From a virus, in IMG/VR virus record IMGVR_UViG_3300025131_000356, positions 1 to 26,427 of that record: a stretch of 26,427 nt of DNA; one strand, 5' to 3'. Positions 1 through 21,367 of the stretch are shown piece by piece. Numbering within the stretch: the first letter of the stretch is position 1; each line of letters opens with the position of its first letter. The notes under the pieces were generated by a model. The model was given only the letters and a program-made list of their open reading frames with translations, did not search any database and was not told the DNA's origin. The translations under genes and the position numbers were made by a program.

Positions 1-92
1 GGATAAATTCTATCCCCACAGGATAAATTCTATCCCCACAGGATAAATTCTATCCCCACAGGATAAATTCTATCCCCACAGGATAAATCTAT
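1..92. repeat. 20-bp tandem iterons (4 full copies plus a partial fifth)
   Basis: The unit GGATAAATTCTATCCCCACA occurs at 1-20, 21-40, 41-60 and 61-80, followed by a partial, diverged copy at 81-92. Each unit contains the dyad GGATA / TATCC around a 5-nt centre, so every 20 bp presents a palindromic site on roughly the same DNA face. The four copies are identical. The window begins exactly on a unit boundary, so the array may extend further left or mark a contig or assembly edge. Iterons of this kind are typical of initiator or repressor binding sites; which one applies here is inference. Confidence 0.95.
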
Positions 93-266
93 CTTTTCCC
101 CCACCAGTTCTCAGAAAAGATGTAAGGCCGTAAGGGGTCGGCCAAGTGCGAATACATCACAGGCTATTCTAAAGAAACAAGAAGTTGAAAAACAGAGAGG
201 AGGTTTCCTGTTAATAATGCCCCGCATTATTATCAGGAAAAGAAGCGACCGTCAACACTTTATCTA
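93..266. other. Gene-free stretch with two hairpins
   Basis: No credible ORF is present. Two inverted repeats are visible. GGCCG (126-130) pairs with CGGCC (139-143) over an 8-nt loop. A longer one spans 204-240: TTTCCTG at 204-210 pairs with CAGGAAA at 234-240, and after one T-T mismatch TAATAATG (212-219) pairs with CATTATTA (225-232) over a short C-rich loop. The second is about a 15-bp stem without a following T tract, so it is unlikely to be a rho-independent terminator. It may be a protein-binding or origin hairpin. Confidence 0.7.
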
Positions 267-602
267 TATTGTCGGTTTTGTGTTTTGTATTGTCGGTTTT
301 TCGTTTTGCTAAGTTATTGATTCTAAAGTAATGTTCATAATGTTCCTTTTGTCGGTCGATTTTAAAGTGAATACGGCAAAAAGAAAGAGCTTAAACCTTC
401 TCGCATATGTACTCCTCTATCTATCTCATATGAAACATTATATATAGAGACACAAAGAAAACAGAGAAAACATTTGTCGGTTTTTACATTTTCCCAGATG
501 TACTTAAAAACTACCGACAATACCGACAAAAGGAACAAAACTTATTTATCAATAACTTACGTCATCCCAAAAACCGACAATAGGCGAACTAATCCGACAA
601 TA
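267..602. repeat. Large inverted array of TATTGTCGG boxes; candidate origin or control array
   Basis: Eight copies of a 9-mer related to TATTGTCGG are arranged as a mirror. Forward copies are at 267-275, 288-296, 347-355 (TTTTGTCGG) and 472-480 (ATTTGTCGG). Reverse copies (CCGACAAWA) are at 514-522, 523-531, 574-582 and 594-602. The outer pairs are 21 and 20 bp apart. Symmetry extends beyond the boxes: TAAGTTATTGAT (310-321) and GTTCCTTTTGTCGG (342-355) on the left reappear as reverse complements at 548-559 and 523-536. The centre, about 360-470, is AT-rich with a TATATATAG run. This fits a replication origin or a cooperative repressor array; nothing in the window decides between them. Confidence 0.85.
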
Positions 603-629
603 TCTTATCCATTCTAAATTAGTAGGTAC

Positions 630-670
630 TTGACAAACACTAGTTTTTAGTGTATAATGGTCGTAGACCA
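630..670 (+). promoter_or_regulatory. Consensus sigma70-type promoter with two operator-like dyads
   Basis: TTGACA (630-635) and TATAAT (653-658) are both perfect consensus hexamers with a 17-bp spacer. The spacer carries the inverted repeat ACACTA (637-642) / TAGTGT (648-653), which touches the -10 box. A second perfect dyad, TGGTC-GTA-GACCA (658-670), covers the expected transcription start. The first gene starts at 709 with GGAG at 697-700. A strong promoter with dyads in the spacer and at the start suggests tight repression until needed (inference). Confidence 0.85.
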
Positions 671-708
671 TGTGGGATGATTAATTAAAAGTTACTGGAG
701 ATTAATTT

Positions 709-1197
709 ATGAGAAAAATAACGAGGGAAATATCGACAGCCTTCTTAGATAGCCGTAGCTTGTATCGGGGTAACACTACGACCGATGGCAGCGAGATTAG
801 GTTGTTCGGTAATCTTATCGCTTACTGGGATACTGATTTTACAGTGGCGATAACTCTAGCCGGATGGAATACCGCAACGACTAGAGAACGATTGAACGGT
901 CTACTGGAATTGATGAATGTAGAAAAACGCATCGTATCCAAAGGTGGCGTGCCTTACATGAGCTATCAAAACAGGGTCCATTTTAAACGAATACACCTTC
1001 ATGGGCATTATACGGTCGAGTATGACTTCTTGAGTCCAGAAAACTATGCACGAATTACAGGCGAAAAGGAGGTTAGTAAAACGTCCGTTGCGCATGAGGT
1101 CGCTGACCAATTAGGTATGCGCTTGGAATTTATGGATTGTGCAAGTATGGATCTTGTCAATCTGGGTATCTTGGTTCCAAACACAAAGAGGAGATAG
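709..1197 (+). CDS. Chimeric phage protein: small phage ORF fused to a decayed MoxR fragment
   Basis: The 162-aa product is a mosaic. Residues 1 to about 117 resemble a small phage protein type of unknown function, with GNLIAYW, LAGWNT and TTRERLNGLL segments and the tail FLSPENYARITG. Residues 118-158 are homologous to residues 31-71 of the MoxR ATPase encoded at 1597. Over 123 nt (1060-1182 against 1687-1809) 107 bases match by hand count. In this copy the Walker A motif GEKGVGKTS has become GEKEVSKTS, so the glycine before the lysine is lost and nucleotide binding is not expected. GGAG lies 8 nt before the ATG, and the gene is first behind the 630-658 promoter. The N-terminal part may be functional; the C-terminal tail is probably recombination debris. 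Confidence 0.8.
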   Translation: MRKITREISTAFLDSRSLYRGNTTTDGSEIRLFGNLIAYWDTDFTVAITLAGWNTATTRERLNGLLELMNVEKRIVSKGGVPYMSYQNRVHFKRIHLHGHYTVEYDFLSPENYARITGEKEVSKTSVAHEVADQLGMRLEFMDCASMDLVNLGILVPNTKRR

Positions 1198-1199
1198 GC

Positions 1200-1529
1200 A
1201 TGATGATGAATAAAATCTGCAAAACTGACATCGCGGCTGAACTCGCCGTGCAAGAAGAGCTTGTCTCGGTCGGGGGAGCGTTACAAGTCGCTATCGGAAT
1301 GCGGGCAATGCAGGACGGTGCAGACCCTACGGACGCATTCTGGTCTACAGCGTTCAATCTGGGTGTCCGAGAATTTCCGACAAAAGCCGAAATCCATGTA
1401 AGTTTTAACCCTTTAAAACACGAAGATATGAAGGGTGGACTTCTACGTGGAGACGACGCCAAAATCCTCCAAGTCGGATGGACCTTTGGCAAGTTAGTTT
1501 TATTACGGGCGCAAGTCGAACCCGTATAG
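1200..1529 (+). CDS. Hypothetical protein, 109 aa
   Basis: This small soluble protein of unknown function starts with a run of three ATGs (1200, 1203, 1206) behind AGGAG at 1189-1193, so any of the three may initiate. Its first codons (MMNKICK) and 18 nt of DNA (1202-1219) are identical to the start of the Cys-rich gene at 3102, after which the sequences diverge completely. The 5' end therefore looks borrowed by recombination at the start-codon region. The rest has a hydrophobic stretch VGGALQVAIGMRAM and a C-terminal beta-like segment (ILQVGWTFGKLVLL), with no recognised motif. It follows the chimeric gene by 2 nt, so the two are probably cotranscribed. Confidence 0.7.
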   Translation: MMMNKICKTDIAAELAVQEELVSVGGALQVAIGMRAMQDGADPTDAFWSTAFNLGVREFPTKAEIHVSFNPLKHEDMKGGLLRGDDAKILQVGWTFGKLVLLRAQVEPV

Positions 1530-2675: not shown

Positions 2676-2882
2676 ATGAATACAAGAATAATAAAGGAGA
2701 TCCCCAACGAGCATTTTAAACTCTTAGTAGAGATTAAAGATCAGTTGGCTCCCATTAGTGAGTGGTTTGGCAATCCTTGTGAAGATTATTGCGAGGGGTG
2801 TGCGTCATGTGATGCTTGGAAAAGGGTAATAATTTTTCTAACAGAAACCCCAGATAGTTTAACTTGGGGAGATGATATATGA
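2676..2882 (+). CDS. Small Cys-rich protein, 68 aa
   Basis: Function is unknown. The product has a cluster of four cysteines (CEDYCEGCASC, residues about 35-45) that could bind a metal. It starts 2 nt after the MoxR stop codon, with GGAG upstream, and its stop overlaps the next start by 4 nt (ATGA), so it is translationally coupled in the same operon. It has no recognised domain. It is one of several tiny genes inserted between the ATPase and its presumed VWA partner. Confidence 0.65.
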   Translation: MNTRIIKEIPNEHFKLLVEIKDQLAPISEWFGNPCEDYCEGCASCDAWKRVIIFLTETPDSLTWGDDI

Positions 2883-3112
2883 GTATCAAACTAGAATTGG
2901 AAAAACATGAATGGTCAGCGATCATACGATTGGTCCATGAGGAAAGGGATCCGCAGGGACGGAATAAGCGTTTCCTTTCAGGTGAAGGTTGGAATGTGCT
3001 TTGTAATAAGTTAATTAATGCCGGAATAGAGCAGGTATTAGCCTTACCTGAGGATCAGGATTTGATTGATGGGATATTTAATTTTTTAGTGCAGGAGAAA
3101 GATGATGAATAA
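2879..3112 (+). CDS. Hypothetical protein, 77 aa
   Basis: A small acidic protein of unknown function, predicted largely helical, without cysteines in a metal pattern. It overlaps the previous gene by 4 nt. Its last five codons and stop (EKDDE, stop) are made by the repeated junction GGAGAAAGATGATGAATAA, which also supplies the ribosome binding site and ATGs of the next gene. The same end occurs on the next gene (3102-3263), so this end may have been copied rather than evolved in place. Confidence 0.65.
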   Translation: MSIKLELEKHEWSAIIRLVHEERDPQGRNKRFLSGEGWNVLCNKLINAGIEQVLALPEDQDLIDGIFNFLVQEKDDE

Positions 3113-3263
3113 AATCTGTAAACACTGCGGTGAAGTAATTCATCGCGGTGAAATCATGTGGCGGGACTCTGCGAAAGAGTACCCGCAGTATTGCCGAATG
3201 GGCCGTGCGCGACCCGATTTGGGTGGAAACCTGCACGAACCTAAGGAGAAAGATGATGAATAA
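3102..3263 (+). CDS. Small putative zinc-binding protein, 53 aa, tandem paralogue A
   Basis: The short product begins MMNKICKHCGEVIH, contains PQYCRM and ends KEKDDE. CxxC near the start and the later Cys/His suggest a small treble-clef or ribbon zinc site (inference). The start lies within the repeated GGAGAAAGATGATG junction, with ATGs at 3102 and 3105, and overlaps the stop of the previous gene. The next gene (3253) repeats the same pattern: CRHCGEVIH, PQYCR, HEP. The two are therefore tandem paralogues. Confidence 0.7.
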   Translation: MMNKICKHCGEVIHRGEIMWRDSAKEYPQYCRMGRARPDLGGNLHEPKEKDDE

Positions 3264-5849: not shown

Positions 5850-5865
5850 TGTGAGTGTACTCACA
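5850..5865. promoter_or_regulatory. Palindromic operator-like site, copy 2 of 3
   Basis: TGTGAGTGTACTCACA lies in the 40-nt gap between the VWA-like gene and the ribbon-helix-helix gene, 22 nt ahead of the latter's ATG. The arms are identical to those at 1563 and 11200 and only the central two bases differ. Placement just before a small DNA-binding protein gene suggests autoregulation. Copies 1 and 2 also bracket the MoxR/VWA cassette. Confidence 0.75.
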
Positions 5866-5887
5866 CCCAAATAGAAAGAGGTGTTTT

Positions 5888-6109
5888 ATGTCACATGTTG
5901 TGATTAGTGTTTCACCGGAAACAAAGCAGAGGATTGATGTTCTTAGAGATCAGATTGAATCTGCGAATGGGTATCGGTTGTCTTATAGCGATATTGTCAA
6001 GATGTTGCTGAAGACGTATGAGGATGGTGGGCCTGTTAAAGATGAGAGGCAACTTGAGGTGGATTTTGGCGAGGACAGGTCTGACATCCTTGAACGATAC
6101 AAAGGTTAA
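5888..6109 (+). CDS. Ribbon-helix-helix (Arc/CopG-like) DNA-binding protein, 73 aa
   Basis: The N-terminus VVISVSPETKQRIDVLRD reads as the antiparallel beta strand of a ribbon-helix-helix fold followed by helix A. YRLSYSDIVKMLLKTYED fits the turn and helix B. Such proteins bind as dimers to palindromic or repeated operators through the strand residues. The C-terminus (about 46-73) is acidic and could be a partner-binding tail. I chose ATG 5888 because AAAGAGG lies about 6 nt upstream and the earlier in-frame start at 5855 falls inside the palindrome. No toxin-like gene is recognised beside it, so a regulator role is more likely than an antitoxin role. Confidence 0.75.
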   Translation: MSHVVISVSPETKQRIDVLRDQIESANGYRLSYSDIVKMLLKTYEDGGPVKDERQLEVDFGEDRSDILERYKG

Positions 6110-6127: not shown

Positions 6128-6496
6128 ATGCAAATAATTAAACTTAACGGGAAAAAACTACGAGTGTCGGCGAGCGATGAACGGTGCTTGTTGATTCTAA
6201 AAGAATCAAATTTTGCATCGAAAAAGTCGGAATTTGTTGAAGGGCGATATGCTCGTTATCGCAATACGATTTTACCGCGAGATCGGAAAAACCTTGCTGA
6301 TCTCGGGATCAGTGAGCTATCGGCGCGTACAAACGGGTATGACTTCTTGAGTCCAGAAAACTATGCACGAATAACCGGAACACAGTCTACCCGCGTTCGT
6401 AAATTCTTTGAGACTAACCCGCGCTGCCGTTCTGGTATTTTCGGAAATCCCCGCCGGATTAACGCTATCCTTTCGAAACTAGGAGCAGACGCATAA
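6128..6496 (+). CDS. Hypothetical protein, 122 aa, with the shared YDFLSPENYARITG segment
   Basis: A basic protein of unknown function. The middle contains NGYDFLSPENYARITG, and the DNA encoding it (6337-6372, 36 nt) is identical to 1020-1055 in the chimeric first gene, while the flanks are unrelated. The C-terminal part (VRKFFETNPRCRSGIFGNPRRINAIL) is Arg-rich and could contact nucleic acid (inference). Start: ATG 6128 with CGAGGAAAA upstream. It is followed by a hairpin at 6503-6528. Confidence 0.65.
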   Translation: MQIIKLNGKKLRVSASDERCLLILKESNFASKKSEFVEGRYARYRNTILPRDRKNLADLGISELSARTNGYDFLSPENYARITGTQSTRVRKFFETNPRCRSGIFGNPRRINAILSKLGADA

Positions 6497-6559: not shown

Positions 6560-6823
6560 ATGAAGACGTTGTTCGCAAGATTCCTTATGTATTCAATCTG
6601 GAATAATGAGTTCTATTACGCTCAGAGTCTGGGTGCAATGGTAGTTGGTATGTCGTTATTTGTTTTCGGGGGGGTTAATTTAAATGTGGCTTGCATGATC
6701 GCAGGGTTCACCTTGATGGGAACTGGCGTGGTTTTGCTAGCGTGTGGCGAAATGTTTCGTAAGATAGGCGATTACCTATATGAAAAGTATGAGGAGGAAA
6801 TGAAGGGGGAGGAAGATGAGTAA
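6560..6823 (+). CDS. Small two-helix membrane protein, 87 aa
   Basis: Two hydrophobic segments are clear, roughly AQSLGAMVVGMSLFVFGGV (residues about 24-42) and CMIAGFTLMGTGVVLLACG (about 48-66), joined by a short loop, with a charged N-terminus and a very acidic tail (EKYEEEMKGEEDE). It should sit in the host inner membrane. Start ATG 6560 follows GGAGAAG; the longer frame from 6518 would begin inside the hairpin. Size and topology resemble small holins, but no lysin, spanin or other lysis gene is adjacent, so I leave function open. Confidence 0.7.
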   Translation: MKTLFARFLMYSIWNNEFYYAQSLGAMVVGMSLFVFGGVNLNVACMIAGFTLMGTGVVLLACGEMFRKIGDYLYEKYEEEMKGEEDE

Positions 6824-17590: not shown

Positions 17591-18346
17591 ATGGAAAATG
17601 AAACTTTAAGATATGTAATTACAGACGTAGAGGCTATGTATCCTCGCATTAACAGACCATATCGGTTTGACCAGAAGGCACAGAAGACAATGCCTTGCGA
17701 AGCTCATGAAGACGGCGCGGAATATAGATTGCAATTTCGCATGAATAGAGAACAAGCAGGTGAATTATTTAAAGTAATGCACCAAGCCTACGCTGCAACT
17801 AAAACAAACAATTGGCCTGAAAAACTCGAACCTCCTTTTAAAGATGAAGGTGATGATTTTTATACGTTCAATACAAAGATCAAGGCGCAGTACAACAACC
17901 AGATTACACGCCCCATTTCCCACATGGATTCAAAAGCTAATCCACTACCTGAAGGGTTTGAATTGACCCACGGAAGTATGATTAATATCGCTTGTGTATT
18001 GATACCCTACAACACCAAGGCAGCAGGGGCGGGTGTATCCTTACGGCTAAGTGCTGTACAAGTTATACAGTTAGCAGAACGTCAGGGGTACAACCCCTTT
18101 TCTAGTGTAGATGGGGGCTTTACTTTGCTAAAAGAAGAGAACCCTTTTGCGACAAATCCCGTCGATGCTGATGTTGGTGTTGAAGAAGATCCTTTTGCAG
18201 ATCCTGTGGAAGAAAAACCCAAAGTTAAAACTCGTAAAAAGAGAGCCGCTAAAGTTGAAGCTACTGAAGAACAACCTAAGTCAGACCTAAACGACATATT
18301 AAGTAAGTTTGCTCCTTCTTCTGATGAAGTGGACGATAATGAGTGA
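17591..18346 (+). CDS. Putative phage single-stranded DNA-binding protein, 251 aa
   Basis: The protein has a beta-rich core (about 20-190) with GVSLRLSAVQVIQLAERQGYNPF near its end, typical of phage OB-fold ssDNA-binding proteins of the DUF2815/gp2.5-like kind. A flexible tail follows with acidic, Lys-rich and Pro segments, ending in an acidic tip (SDEVDDNE), as SSB proteins use to contact partners. NPFATNP and EEDPFADP repeats sit at the tail start. It lies between the Gam-like gene and the primase-helicase and overlaps the next start by 8 nt, which fits a replisome role. Confidence 0.75.
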   Translation: MENETLRYVITDVEAMYPRINRPYRFDQKAQKTMPCEAHEDGAEYRLQFRMNREQAGELFKVMHQAYAATKTNNWPEKLEPPFKDEGDDFYTFNTKIKAQYNNQITRPISHMDSKANPLPEGFELTHGSMINIACVLIPYNTKAAGAGVSLRLSAVQVIQLAERQGYNPFSSVDGGFTLLKEENPFATNPVDADVGVEEDPFADPVEEKPKVKTRKKRAAKVEATEEQPKSDLNDILSKFAPSSDEVDDNE

Positions 18347-18584
18347 CAACAGAGGTTATTCTAATAAATTAGCAAACGTTAACCGTAATGCAGATTTCTC
18401 TAGTGCAGGGGTAAAACTAGGGAGGTTCTGCATCGCGGAAGATAAACGTGTTACTGCAATTGCAAAAAAATTTAACGTAACCAAATTAACTATTTATAAA
18501 TGGTTTGAGGGTAGTTGGATTCCTAACGAAAAACACACCGATCAAATCTTAAAATATCTTGAGAGAGAAGATGCAAAGGTTTAG
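18339..18584 (+). CDS. Small helix-turn-helix protein, 81 aa
   Basis: The segment RVTAIAKKFNVTKLTIYKWFEGSWIP (here a region around residues 35-60) reads as a Cro/XRE-like or homeodomain-like helix-turn-helix with a clear recognition helix. It could be a regulator, or an accessory DNA-binding protein of the replisome. ATG 18339 overlaps the end of the ssDNA-binding gene; the longer frame from 18309 is not favoured. It ends 2 nt before the primase start. Confidence 0.65.
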   Translation: MSDNRGYSNKLANVNRNADFSSAGVKLGRFCIAEDKRVTAIAKKFNVTKLTIYKWFEGSWIPNEKHTDQILKYLEREDAKV

Positions 18585-18586
18585 TT

Positions 18587-21367
18587 ATGCCAACATTTAT
18601 ACAAAAGATCCTTCCAGATGAAGGGTATTATTGTGTCGTTGGCCTAAAAGATGGTGTAAGTCCACAACAAAGTTTTTATGATACATGGGAAGGTATTGAA
18701 ACAGGGGTAGAGGATTTACTAGAAGGGGACTTTAACGTATATTTTGCATGTTCTTCATTTTCAAATTCCGAAAGAAGAACCCAAGAAAACGCAATATACA
18801 TGAAGTCTTTCTGGCTTGATTTAGATTGTGGGGAAAGCAAACCTTACCCAAGTCAAGCTAATGCGCTGGAAGCATTGCTGTCTTTTTGTCAAACGATGAA
18901 ATTACCTACGCCGACTATTGTTGATAGTGGGCGTGGTATCCATGTGTACTGGGTGCTAAAAGAATCTATAAAAAAAGATGAATGGAACCCAGTTGCTAAA
19001 CAGTTAAAAATTCTATGTAAGGAGAAAGGTCTTGAGGCAGACCCAGCGGTTACGGCGGATAGTGCGAGAATATTACGTGTACCAGACACATTCAACTATA
19101 AAACAAGCCCCCCTGCCAAAGTATCGGTGTTACATGAATCTCCCGAAACTGATTTTGAAGAAATTAAAAAACTTATAGGGACCACCGAAGCAACCAACAG
19201 ACATACATTTGCAGAGACGGATTCACGCCAAAAAGATAATCAACAATATTCCTTTTCTAAAATTGTACAGAAAATCGTTAAAGGAAAGGGATGTCCTCAA
19301 ATAGAATACGCATTAAAACATCAAGCTGACGTTAACTATAACGTATGGCGAGCAGTTCTTTCTATTGCTGCTAATTGTAAAGATTCCGATGTTGCTATTC
19401 ATGCAGTATCTGACAAACACCCAGAATACGACCCTCAAGAAACTGAAGAAAAAGCAGTTGATTTAATCAACAAACCTTATCGATGCGACACTATAGACGG
19501 AATTAACAGCAATGTCTGTGATGACTGTTCTCATTTTGGGAAAATAAGAAGTCCTATAGATTTAGGTCTTAAAGTTATAGAACAGGAAGGCACTGATCCT
19601 ATTTTAGATTTCCTTCCTCCTAAACTCCCAATGCCTTTTTTTAGGGCTGCTAAGGGGGGGATCTACAGAAAAGCCCGTGACCCAGCCGATGATGATTTAT
19701 TGATCTATCACAATGATCTTTTCTTAATTAAACGTCTACACGATAAAGAAAAAGGAGATATGGCGCTCGCCAAACTAATACTCCCTAAAGATGGAGTACG
19801 GGAGTTTTTAATCCCTCTGGCTTGCATGACGAGTAAAGAAGAACTGCGTAAGATTCTTTCGGCGCAGGGTGTTGTAATGATGCCAAAGCAATTAGATAAC
19901 ATGATGGTCTATCTAATAGAGTGTACCAAAAATCAACAAGCCCAAGATGAGGCCGAGATTATGAGGACACAATTTGGCTGGGTTGATGAAGATACCAAAT
20001 TTATTCTTGGGGATAAAGAGATTAACTGTTCCAATATCCGTTACTCTCCTCCTTCTCCAAAAACAGAATCTATTTGTAAATGGCTTGTCTCCAAAGGAAA
20101 TATAGAAGAATGGAAACATGTTATCCAAGTGTACAACAAACCTGATTTTGAGCCTCATGCGTTTGGGTTTTTTACTGCGTTTGGTGCGCCATTAATTAAA
20201 CATCTAGGATTTAATGGAGCGTTGATTAACCTGATTAATTCTTCTTCAGGTACAGGAAAATCTACTGTTTTAAAAATGTGCAATAGTGTATACGGGCATC
20301 CTGATAAATTACTAGCACAAGAAACGGATACGTTTGCTCATAAGATGCACCGATTAGGGGTTATGAATAACTTACCATACACGGTAGATGAAATAACTAA
20401 CATGCACCCTGATTCAGTTTCTACTTTGTTATATAACGTATCTCAAGGTTCCGGCCCTGGACGGATGCAATCTCAAAGTAACATGGAGCGTAAGAATGAT
20501 ACCAACTGGAGTCTGATTGCGCTTGCAAGTTCTAATGCGTCTATGGCGGAAAAACTATCTTTGATTAAACAGTTTGCCGATGGGGAGATCATGCGGTTAC
20601 TGGAATACCGTGTTGACCGTACTGATAATATCAGTAAGTCAGATGCCTATAAATTGTTTGAAGGGACTTTATTAAGTAACTATGGTTTGGCAGGGCCGAT
20701 TTACATTGAATATCTGGTTAAAAATTTAACTAAAGCTGTTGATTTAGCGCAAGGTATTCAGGAACATCTTGATGCTAAAGCTAATTTAAACTCTCGGGAA
20801 CGATTCTGGTCGGCTGTTATATCCTGCAATATTGCGGGGGCGCAGATAGCCAACCATTTACGATTGATTAATTTGGATATTCCTAGAGTATTGAATTGGG
20901 CGAGTAACGAACTTGTAGATACTCTACGACAACAGATCATAGAACCTGAGATAGATTTTGTAAGTGTATTAGGGGGATTTTTAAATGTGAATCGTGGGCA
21001 TATTCTGGTGGTTAATGGGGCGTATGACGCTAGAAATTCTATAACCCCTCTTCCTATCGTAGAACCAAGATATGAATTAACAACCCGACTTGAGCCAGAT
21101 ACAGAAACTTTGTTTGTATTTAGTAAAGCCATTAGAAACTATTGCGCCAGAGAACAAATTATCTTTAAAGATTTAGTTCGAGATTTAAAGGAGAAGGGTA
21201 TTCATCAAGGTACGGTACGGAAACGGTTAGCAAAAGGAACCTCTATCGATAGTCCTCCTGTTGAAACACATGTTTTTAAACTGGAAGGAACCGACTTAAT
21301 AGACACAGAATTTATGCAAAATTTAGGACGGGAAGTTGATGATCCAGATACACGGGATAGAGTTTGA
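18587..21367 (+). CDS. Primase-helicase: AEP-type primase fused to a superfamily III-like ATPase
   Basis: The 926-aa product fuses two replication activities. The N-terminal archaeo-eukaryotic primase domain has FWLDLDCGE (D78, D80), DSGRGIHVYWVL with the catalytic-type His, and an ADSARILRVPDTFNYK segment. A small Cys cluster (C300, C311, C314) follows, probably a zinc site. The C-terminal ATPase (DUF927/SF3-like) has SSGTGKST (553-560) as Walker A and VDE (600-602) as Walker B, with NASMAEK further on. It should prime and unwind at the phage fork with the family A polymerase. It is the largest replication gene and its 3' end overlaps the small gene at 21339. Confidence 0.9.
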   Translation: MPTFIQKILPDEGYYCVVGLKDGVSPQQSFYDTWEGIETGVEDLLEGDFNVYFACSSFSNSERRTQENAIYMKSFWLDLDCGESKPYPSQANALEALLSFCQTMKLPTPTIVDSGRGIHVYWVLKESIKKDEWNPVAKQLKILCKEKGLEADPAVTADSARILRVPDTFNYKTSPPAKVSVLHESPETDFEEIKKLIGTTEATNRHTFAETDSRQKDNQQYSFSKIVQKIVKGKGCPQIEYALKHQADVNYNVWRAVLSIAANCKDSDVAIHAVSDKHPEYDPQETEEKAVDLINKPYRCDTIDGINSNVCDDCSHFGKIRSPIDLGLKVIEQEGTDPILDFLPPKLPMPFFRAAKGGIYRKARDPADDDLLIYHNDLFLIKRLHDKEKGDMALAKLILPKDGVREFLIPLACMTSKEELRKILSAQGVVMMPKQLDNMMVYLIECTKNQQAQDEAEIMRTQFGWVDEDTKFILGDKEINCSNIRYSPPSPKTESICKWLVSKGNIEEWKHVIQVYNKPDFEPHAFGFFTAFGAPLIKHLGFNGALINLINSSSGTGKSTVLKMCNSVYGHPDKLLAQETDTFAHKMHRLGVMNNLPYTVDEITNMHPDSVSTLLYNVSQGSGPGRMQSQSNMERKNDTNWSLIALASSNASMAEKLSLIKQFADGEIMRLLEYRVDRTDNISKSDAYKLFEGTLLSNYGLAGPIYIEYLVKNLTKAVDLAQGIQEHLDAKANLNSRERFWSAVISCNIAGAQIANHLRLINLDIPRVLNWASNELVDTLRQQIIEPEIDFVSVLGGFLNVNRGHILVVNGAYDARNSITPLPIVEPRYELTTRLEPDTETLFVFSKAIRNYCAREQIIFKDLVRDLKEKGIHQGTVRKRLAKGTSIDSPPVETHVFKLEGTDLIDTEFMQNLGREVDDPDTRDRV

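Follow-up and report, generated by a model that had tools for sequence, protein, structure and literature searches.

A non-coding element at about positions 200–620 of a 26,427-nt virus fragment (hereafter the window, i.e. the whole stretch of DNA that was analysed), followed by a promoter at 630–658, probably serves as the origin of replication in this phage and in a broad range of its relatives. The non-coding interval 204–658 holds a hairpin, eight copies of a short box, two IHF-consensus sites, and a sigma-70 promoter. From the mirrored boxes and flanks, the AT-rich centre, and the neighbouring repeats and promoter, the first-pass annotation had proposed either an origin or a repressor array. 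We find the origin half of that proposal partly supported by conservation, the IHF sites, and a minimum in duplex stability, as well as by a fixed position beside early genes, while an array that controls transcription is still the main rival.

The eight TTGTCGG boxes lie at 267–602, in the number and at the coordinates originally annotated, and the proposed split into four forward and four reverse copies is borne out, with every forward copy to the left of every reverse copy. The exact 9-mer TATTGTCGG accounts for five of the eight boxes (starts 267, 288, 514, 574, and 594), TTTTGTCGG for two (starts 347 and 523), and ATTTGTCGG, with two mismatches, for one (start 472). On the plus strand, TATTGTCGG boxes at 267–275 and 288–296, the second 21 nt past the first, are followed by three contiguous 9-nt units at 329–355 (TAATGTTCA, TAATGTTCC, and TTTTGTCGG, recognized by eye), of which the third is a box and the first two resemble degenerate boxes, and then by the ATTTGTCGG box at 472–480. 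The minus strand carries three contiguous 9-nt units at 514–540 (TTTTGTTCC, TTTTGTCGG, and TATTGTCGG), in which boxes 523 and 514 form a 9-nt tandem, and TATTGTCGG boxes at 574–582 and 594–602. The outer boxes (267–275 and 594–602), an inner pair (347–355 and 514–522), and the IHF-consensus sites (310–322 and 547–559) share a dyad at 434.5; the pair 288–296/574–582 is centered at 435, and box 472 is without a mirror partner. Matching flanks are present on both arms as reported, i.e. TAAGTTATTGAT at 310–321 and 548–559, and GTTCCTTTTGTCGG at 342–355 and 523–536. The inverted repeat is imperfect, as described, its longest reported arms being 56 nt with 73% complementarity.

This clustering of boxes is beyond chance. 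TTGTCGG occurs 8 times in 336 nt, versus a mean of 0.03 and a maximum of 2 in 5000 first-order Markov copies of the region, and when the whole window was simulated in 300 Markov copies, no 340-nt cluster held more than 2. Elsewhere in the window the word is found only once, at 1377. The element thus has the cluster of repeated short sites that characterizes origins of the repeat type.

The TAAGTTATTGAT flank on each arm matches the IHF consensus (WATCARNNNNTTR, as printed in PMC8407004), giving a left site on the minus strand (AATCAATAACTTA, 310–322) and a right site on the plus strand (TATCAATAACTTA, 547–559). The whole window has 5 such matches, 2 of them inside the element. Across related loci, IHF-consensus sites are present in 42 of 47 distinct arrays (600-nt regions, 73 sites in total), compared with 118 of 1098 GC-matched windows from the same loci, and the pattern read backwards is found in 0 of 47 arrays. 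Arrays usually have one or two sites, and up to six (L148). The five without a site (L104, L107, L135, L088, and L129) were kept in the count of 47 and may be unrelated repeats. With consensus sites within the array, the element would, judging by sequence, fit an IHF-assisted nucleoprotein site. Counted over whole genomes, 2 of the 3 IHF matches of TM3_14A fall in the element, as do 1 of 2 in Rollin and 1 of 9 in phiA008. The complete KPP25 genome has zero IHF-consensus matches, so either IHF is not universal or the KPP25 site has drifted. In two loci (L147, 4900–5304; L148, 14138–14540), a single element contains six IHF-type anchors, spaced 46–67 nt from one another and arranged as two triplets.

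Using nearest-neighbour energies, we find that the least stable 100-nt stretch of the whole genome falls within the homologous gap in all four complete cultured relatives (KPP25, TM3_14A, phiA008, and Rollin); in KPP25 this is a 675-nt gap at the same place in the same gene order (26,219–26,894), and in the other three the gap is taken as homologous from its position and, in Rollin, also from its boxes. The least stable 100-nt stretch within the element of the window lies between the arms (410–509), and 0.23% of window positions are weaker, compared with 1.3% in G005 and 0.05% in G015; i.e. other stretches are less stable than the element in the window and in these two AT-rich relatives. An easily melted AT-rich stretch is therefore present, as a genome minimum in the cultured phages and at the level of the top 0.23% in the window. 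This minimum is the most direct support for an unwinding element, and it would not be expected of an operator.

Cumulative GC skew, suggested earlier as a check on the origin, has its turning points elsewhere than at the element in all four complete genomes. The AT skew turns near the element in KPP25 (minimum at 27,358), phiA008 (3,205; gap 2,812–3,226), and Rollin (1,347; gap 1–800), and the minimum in TM3_14A is at 17,614 (gap 19,356–20,124); this support is weak because the direction of transcription switches within a few kb. In 34 element regions, DnaA boxes show no enrichment (3 found vs 1.5 expected), which does not point to a DnaA-dependent origin.

BLASTN of window positions 1–1500 against phage and plasmid records gave no match, and an initial search with the AAA protein alone gave no relative. 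A PolA scan returned 14 related contigs, among them G005 with the same array at the same place, and a DNA pattern located the array in L038/G015 and in L041, where the contig ends within it. Three phage contigs besides the window share the conserved element; that of the window is 84% identical to the G005 copy and 82% to the G015 copy, versus 65–72% or no DNA alignment for the adjoining genes in the same comparisons, and a 45-nt stretch (TAAAGTAATGTTCATAATGTTCCTTTTGTCGGTCGATTTTAAAGT) is identical across all four aligned sequences. In both G005 and G015, the array lies between several small genes and the AAA ATPase, a few kb into a rightward early cluster, and not at a point of transcription divergence. 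A terminator-like hairpin with a T-run precedes the G005 array (by eye).

The left edge of the element is formed by a 17-bp hairpin (TTTCCTGTTAATAATGC / GCATTATTATCAGGAAA, 204–240) without a T-run, which is kept in all four aligned close relatives and might act as a start site on single-stranded DNA or be bound by a protein. The "palindromic iterons" annotated nearby do exist as repeats at 1–100, but they consist of a 20-nt direct repeat (GGATAAATTCTATCCCCACA), present in four and a half copies at the left edge of the contig, where the assembly probably stops inside a longer repeat; by eye, G005 and G015 do not have the repeat at this position. A second motif (GAACTGGT/ACCAGTTC or a near match) is found left of the array at 103–110, on the same side in L060, L061, L063, L071, L072, L090, G005, and G015, and left of many arrays. 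No Rfam families or tRNAs were found.

Alignment of the AAA protein extended the comparison to at least 80 loci, and a core-profile search finds diverged copies of the element upstream of the AAA gene in many of them, including many uncultured phages. Among the matches listed, scanning for over-represented 7-mers picked up arrays in 47 of the 80 loci and none in the other 33, many of which have little upstream DNA. The 47 exclude the cultured phages, L041 (below threshold), and loci on the same contigs or with near-identical arrays (L059, L067, L108, L136, L146, L152–L154, L157, L159, L160, and L162); L119 and L121 look alike and are both counted.

The box word varies between phages and is largely uniform within one. 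In 48 regions bounded by hand, the words include TGTCGG, TGTTCC/T, TGTTAC, TGTTAG, TGTTAT, TGTAAG, and TGTAAA, with TATTAG in L118, and mixed-word arrays also exist (e.g. TGTTAC and TGTTAT in L124 and L128). KPP25 has its own word, TGTTACG, with 8 of 14 genome copies in the gap, as does Rollin (TTGCATA, 8 of 9 copies), and no clear box word was found in TM3_14A or phiA008. The commonest layout, seen in most of 32 hand-bounded arrays, is forward boxes, IHF site, forward boxes, and reverse boxes, often with further reverse boxes beyond. The forward box is on the left in 826 of 1114 opposite-orientation pairs from these 32 arrays; L148, with its six IHF sites, is an exception (26 of 72 pairs), and several arrays are mixed. 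Spacing between same-strand neighbours peaks at 8 nt (35 cases) and 9 nt (25), with a second class at 20 nt (9) and 21 nt (19). At one contig edge (L104, 1–79), there are 11 tandem copies of the 7-nt unit CCTAACA.

These differences suggest that initiator specificity has changed repeatedly, with all boxes of an array changing along. We tentatively raise the possibility that, in this phage group, the recognition word of an essential origin is replaced in all boxes of an array at once, with the architecture left intact. Such a swap within a kept architecture would imply a fast-changing pairing of initiator and origin, which, if true, keeps co-infecting relatives or satellites off each other's replication machinery.

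On the origin reading, a phage-encoded initiator would bind the oppositely oriented clusters of 9-nt boxes, host IHF would bend the DNA at the two symmetric sites and bring the clusters together, and the AT-rich centre would melt and have the phage primase-helicase loaded onto it; transcription from the strong adjoining promoter may aid opening. Consistent with the first-pass annotation, no initiator gene of a known Rep type is found among the 20 ORFs of the window, itself a fragment, that were scanned against Pfam. Two box-binding proteins had been put forward. The ribbon-helix-helix protein (5855–6109) is an unlikely binder because it is poorly conserved (26% to G005) while the boxes are identical, and its only Pfam match is a weak one to DUF7557. 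In 20 of 20 relatives examined, the helix-turn-helix protein (81 aa, 18339–18584, plus strand) is encoded directly upstream of a DUF927 primase-helicase (926 aa, 18587–21367, plus strand), which is likely the helicase that the origin loads. However, the recognition helix of the helix-turn-helix protein does not follow the box word, and the model of this protein has no match in KPP25, TM3_14A, phiA008, or Rollin. Specifically, the recognition helix is near-constant (SRMTVYNWF and close variants) across differing box words, with M in one TGTTAG phage and Q in another, and the association of protein columns with box word, which is confounded by relatedness (19 proteins, L187 and L188 left out), peaks at the N-terminal arm and not at the recognition helix. 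Of 31 further records, mostly fragments, 5 contain the protein. AlphaFold predicts five helices (mean pLDDT 86), and Foldseek returns weak matches, many of them to Cro/cI-type repressors and none at E < 0.001. We consider this protein the leading initiator candidate.

KPP25 and phiA008 have a DUF5906 helicase in place of the DUF927 type, and Rollin encodes at the same position a 104-aa protein that reads like a helix-turn-helix protein and has no Pfam match. Several phages encode a protein of ~260 aa immediately left of the array; these proteins were set aside as binders, having no detectable mutual similarity, and those of G005 and G015 match no Pfam family at 0.01 or better. The C-terminus of the primase-helicase was also examined as a possible binder, with nothing conclusive. 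Window positions 709–1197 encode a Kyano_Gp96-like domain and, after it, an incomplete duplicate of the N-terminal region of the AAA ATPase encoded at 1564 (48% over 80 aa); the ORF at 6128 also contains FLSPENYARITG from this region, and the one at 6816 a similar SENYKVITG.

The boxes could instead be bound by a phage regulator that, cooperatively and with IHF-made loops, represses or activates the promoter at 630–658 and perhaps also acts on upstream transcription, a reading that we consider rather unlikely. The promoter annotated beside the array is indeed a consensus one (sigma-70 TTGACA-17-TATAAT, plus strand, 12 of 12 matches) that faces the early genes. Of 33 arrays in regions bounded by hand, 25 have a promoter immediately to their right, versus 74 of 1660 background windows; this speaks for transcriptional control, though it also counts toward the origin. 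Transcriptional control is further favoured by the resemblance of the helix-turn-helix candidate to Cro/cI-type regulators in family scans and loose fold matches. However, 8–15 boxes over 300–450 nt with conserved spacers are a large number for a single promoter, which is itself located outside the boxes, and an operator needs no genome-wide stability minimum, yet one is present in all four complete genomes.

Sites other than an origin or transcriptional control are improbable even when taken together. Arrays of short repeats near a promoter, along with the 5855–6109 protein that had been called ribbon-helix-helix, would suit a centromere or partition site to which a ParB- or ParR-like protein binds, but the low conservation of that protein beside identical boxes, and the lack of any ParA, ParM, or ParB family or partition NTPase among the 20 ORFs scanned in this fragment, make such a site very unlikely. 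We give equally little credence to a packaging or recombination site, i.e. either an attachment site or a cos/pac site that uses IHF in the manner of lambda cosB. IHF sites beside short repeats do occur at sites of this kind; here, however, the element is inside the early gene cluster, the large terminase gene of L041 is about 5 kb off, no integrase family is found among the scanned window ORFs, and a symmetric array gives no direction.

If the origin reading is right, it provides a recognizable origin for a large, mostly uncultured phage group (KPP25-like phages and others), a matched series of box words for finding the initiator, and a lesson on how DNA-binding specificity changes when some ten sites must change together. 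The literature searched, which included PMC4859162 and PMC13340246 and did not cover the Miyata 2014 paper on KPP25, holds no description of the element or of a Kochitakasuvirus origin.

At P4 ori1/crr and lambda ori, a phage initiator or primase-helicase acts at repeated sites with an AT-rich stretch. The element differs from these in its repeat words and spacing, and its own initiator is putative. Iteron plasmid origins such as those of RK2, F, and R6K have repeated replicon-protein sites by an AT-rich element, some with IHF, according to PMC10797057. The phage element likewise has repeats beside an AT-rich stretch with IHF-consensus sites, but its repeats face each other instead of running one way, and no Rep gene of a known family is recognized among the 20 ORFs of the window fragment. 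The Escherichia coli oriC, as described in PMC8407004, has two oppositely oriented box clusters, an IHF site, and an AT-rich unwinding element. The phage element resembles it in its opposed box clusters, IHF-consensus sites, and AT-rich stretch; unlike oriC, its boxes are not DnaA boxes, their word varies between phages, and most arrays have one or two IHF sites, with six in L148. The component parts are of known kinds; what is new is that the box word switches from phage to phage across the group while the architecture stays fixed.
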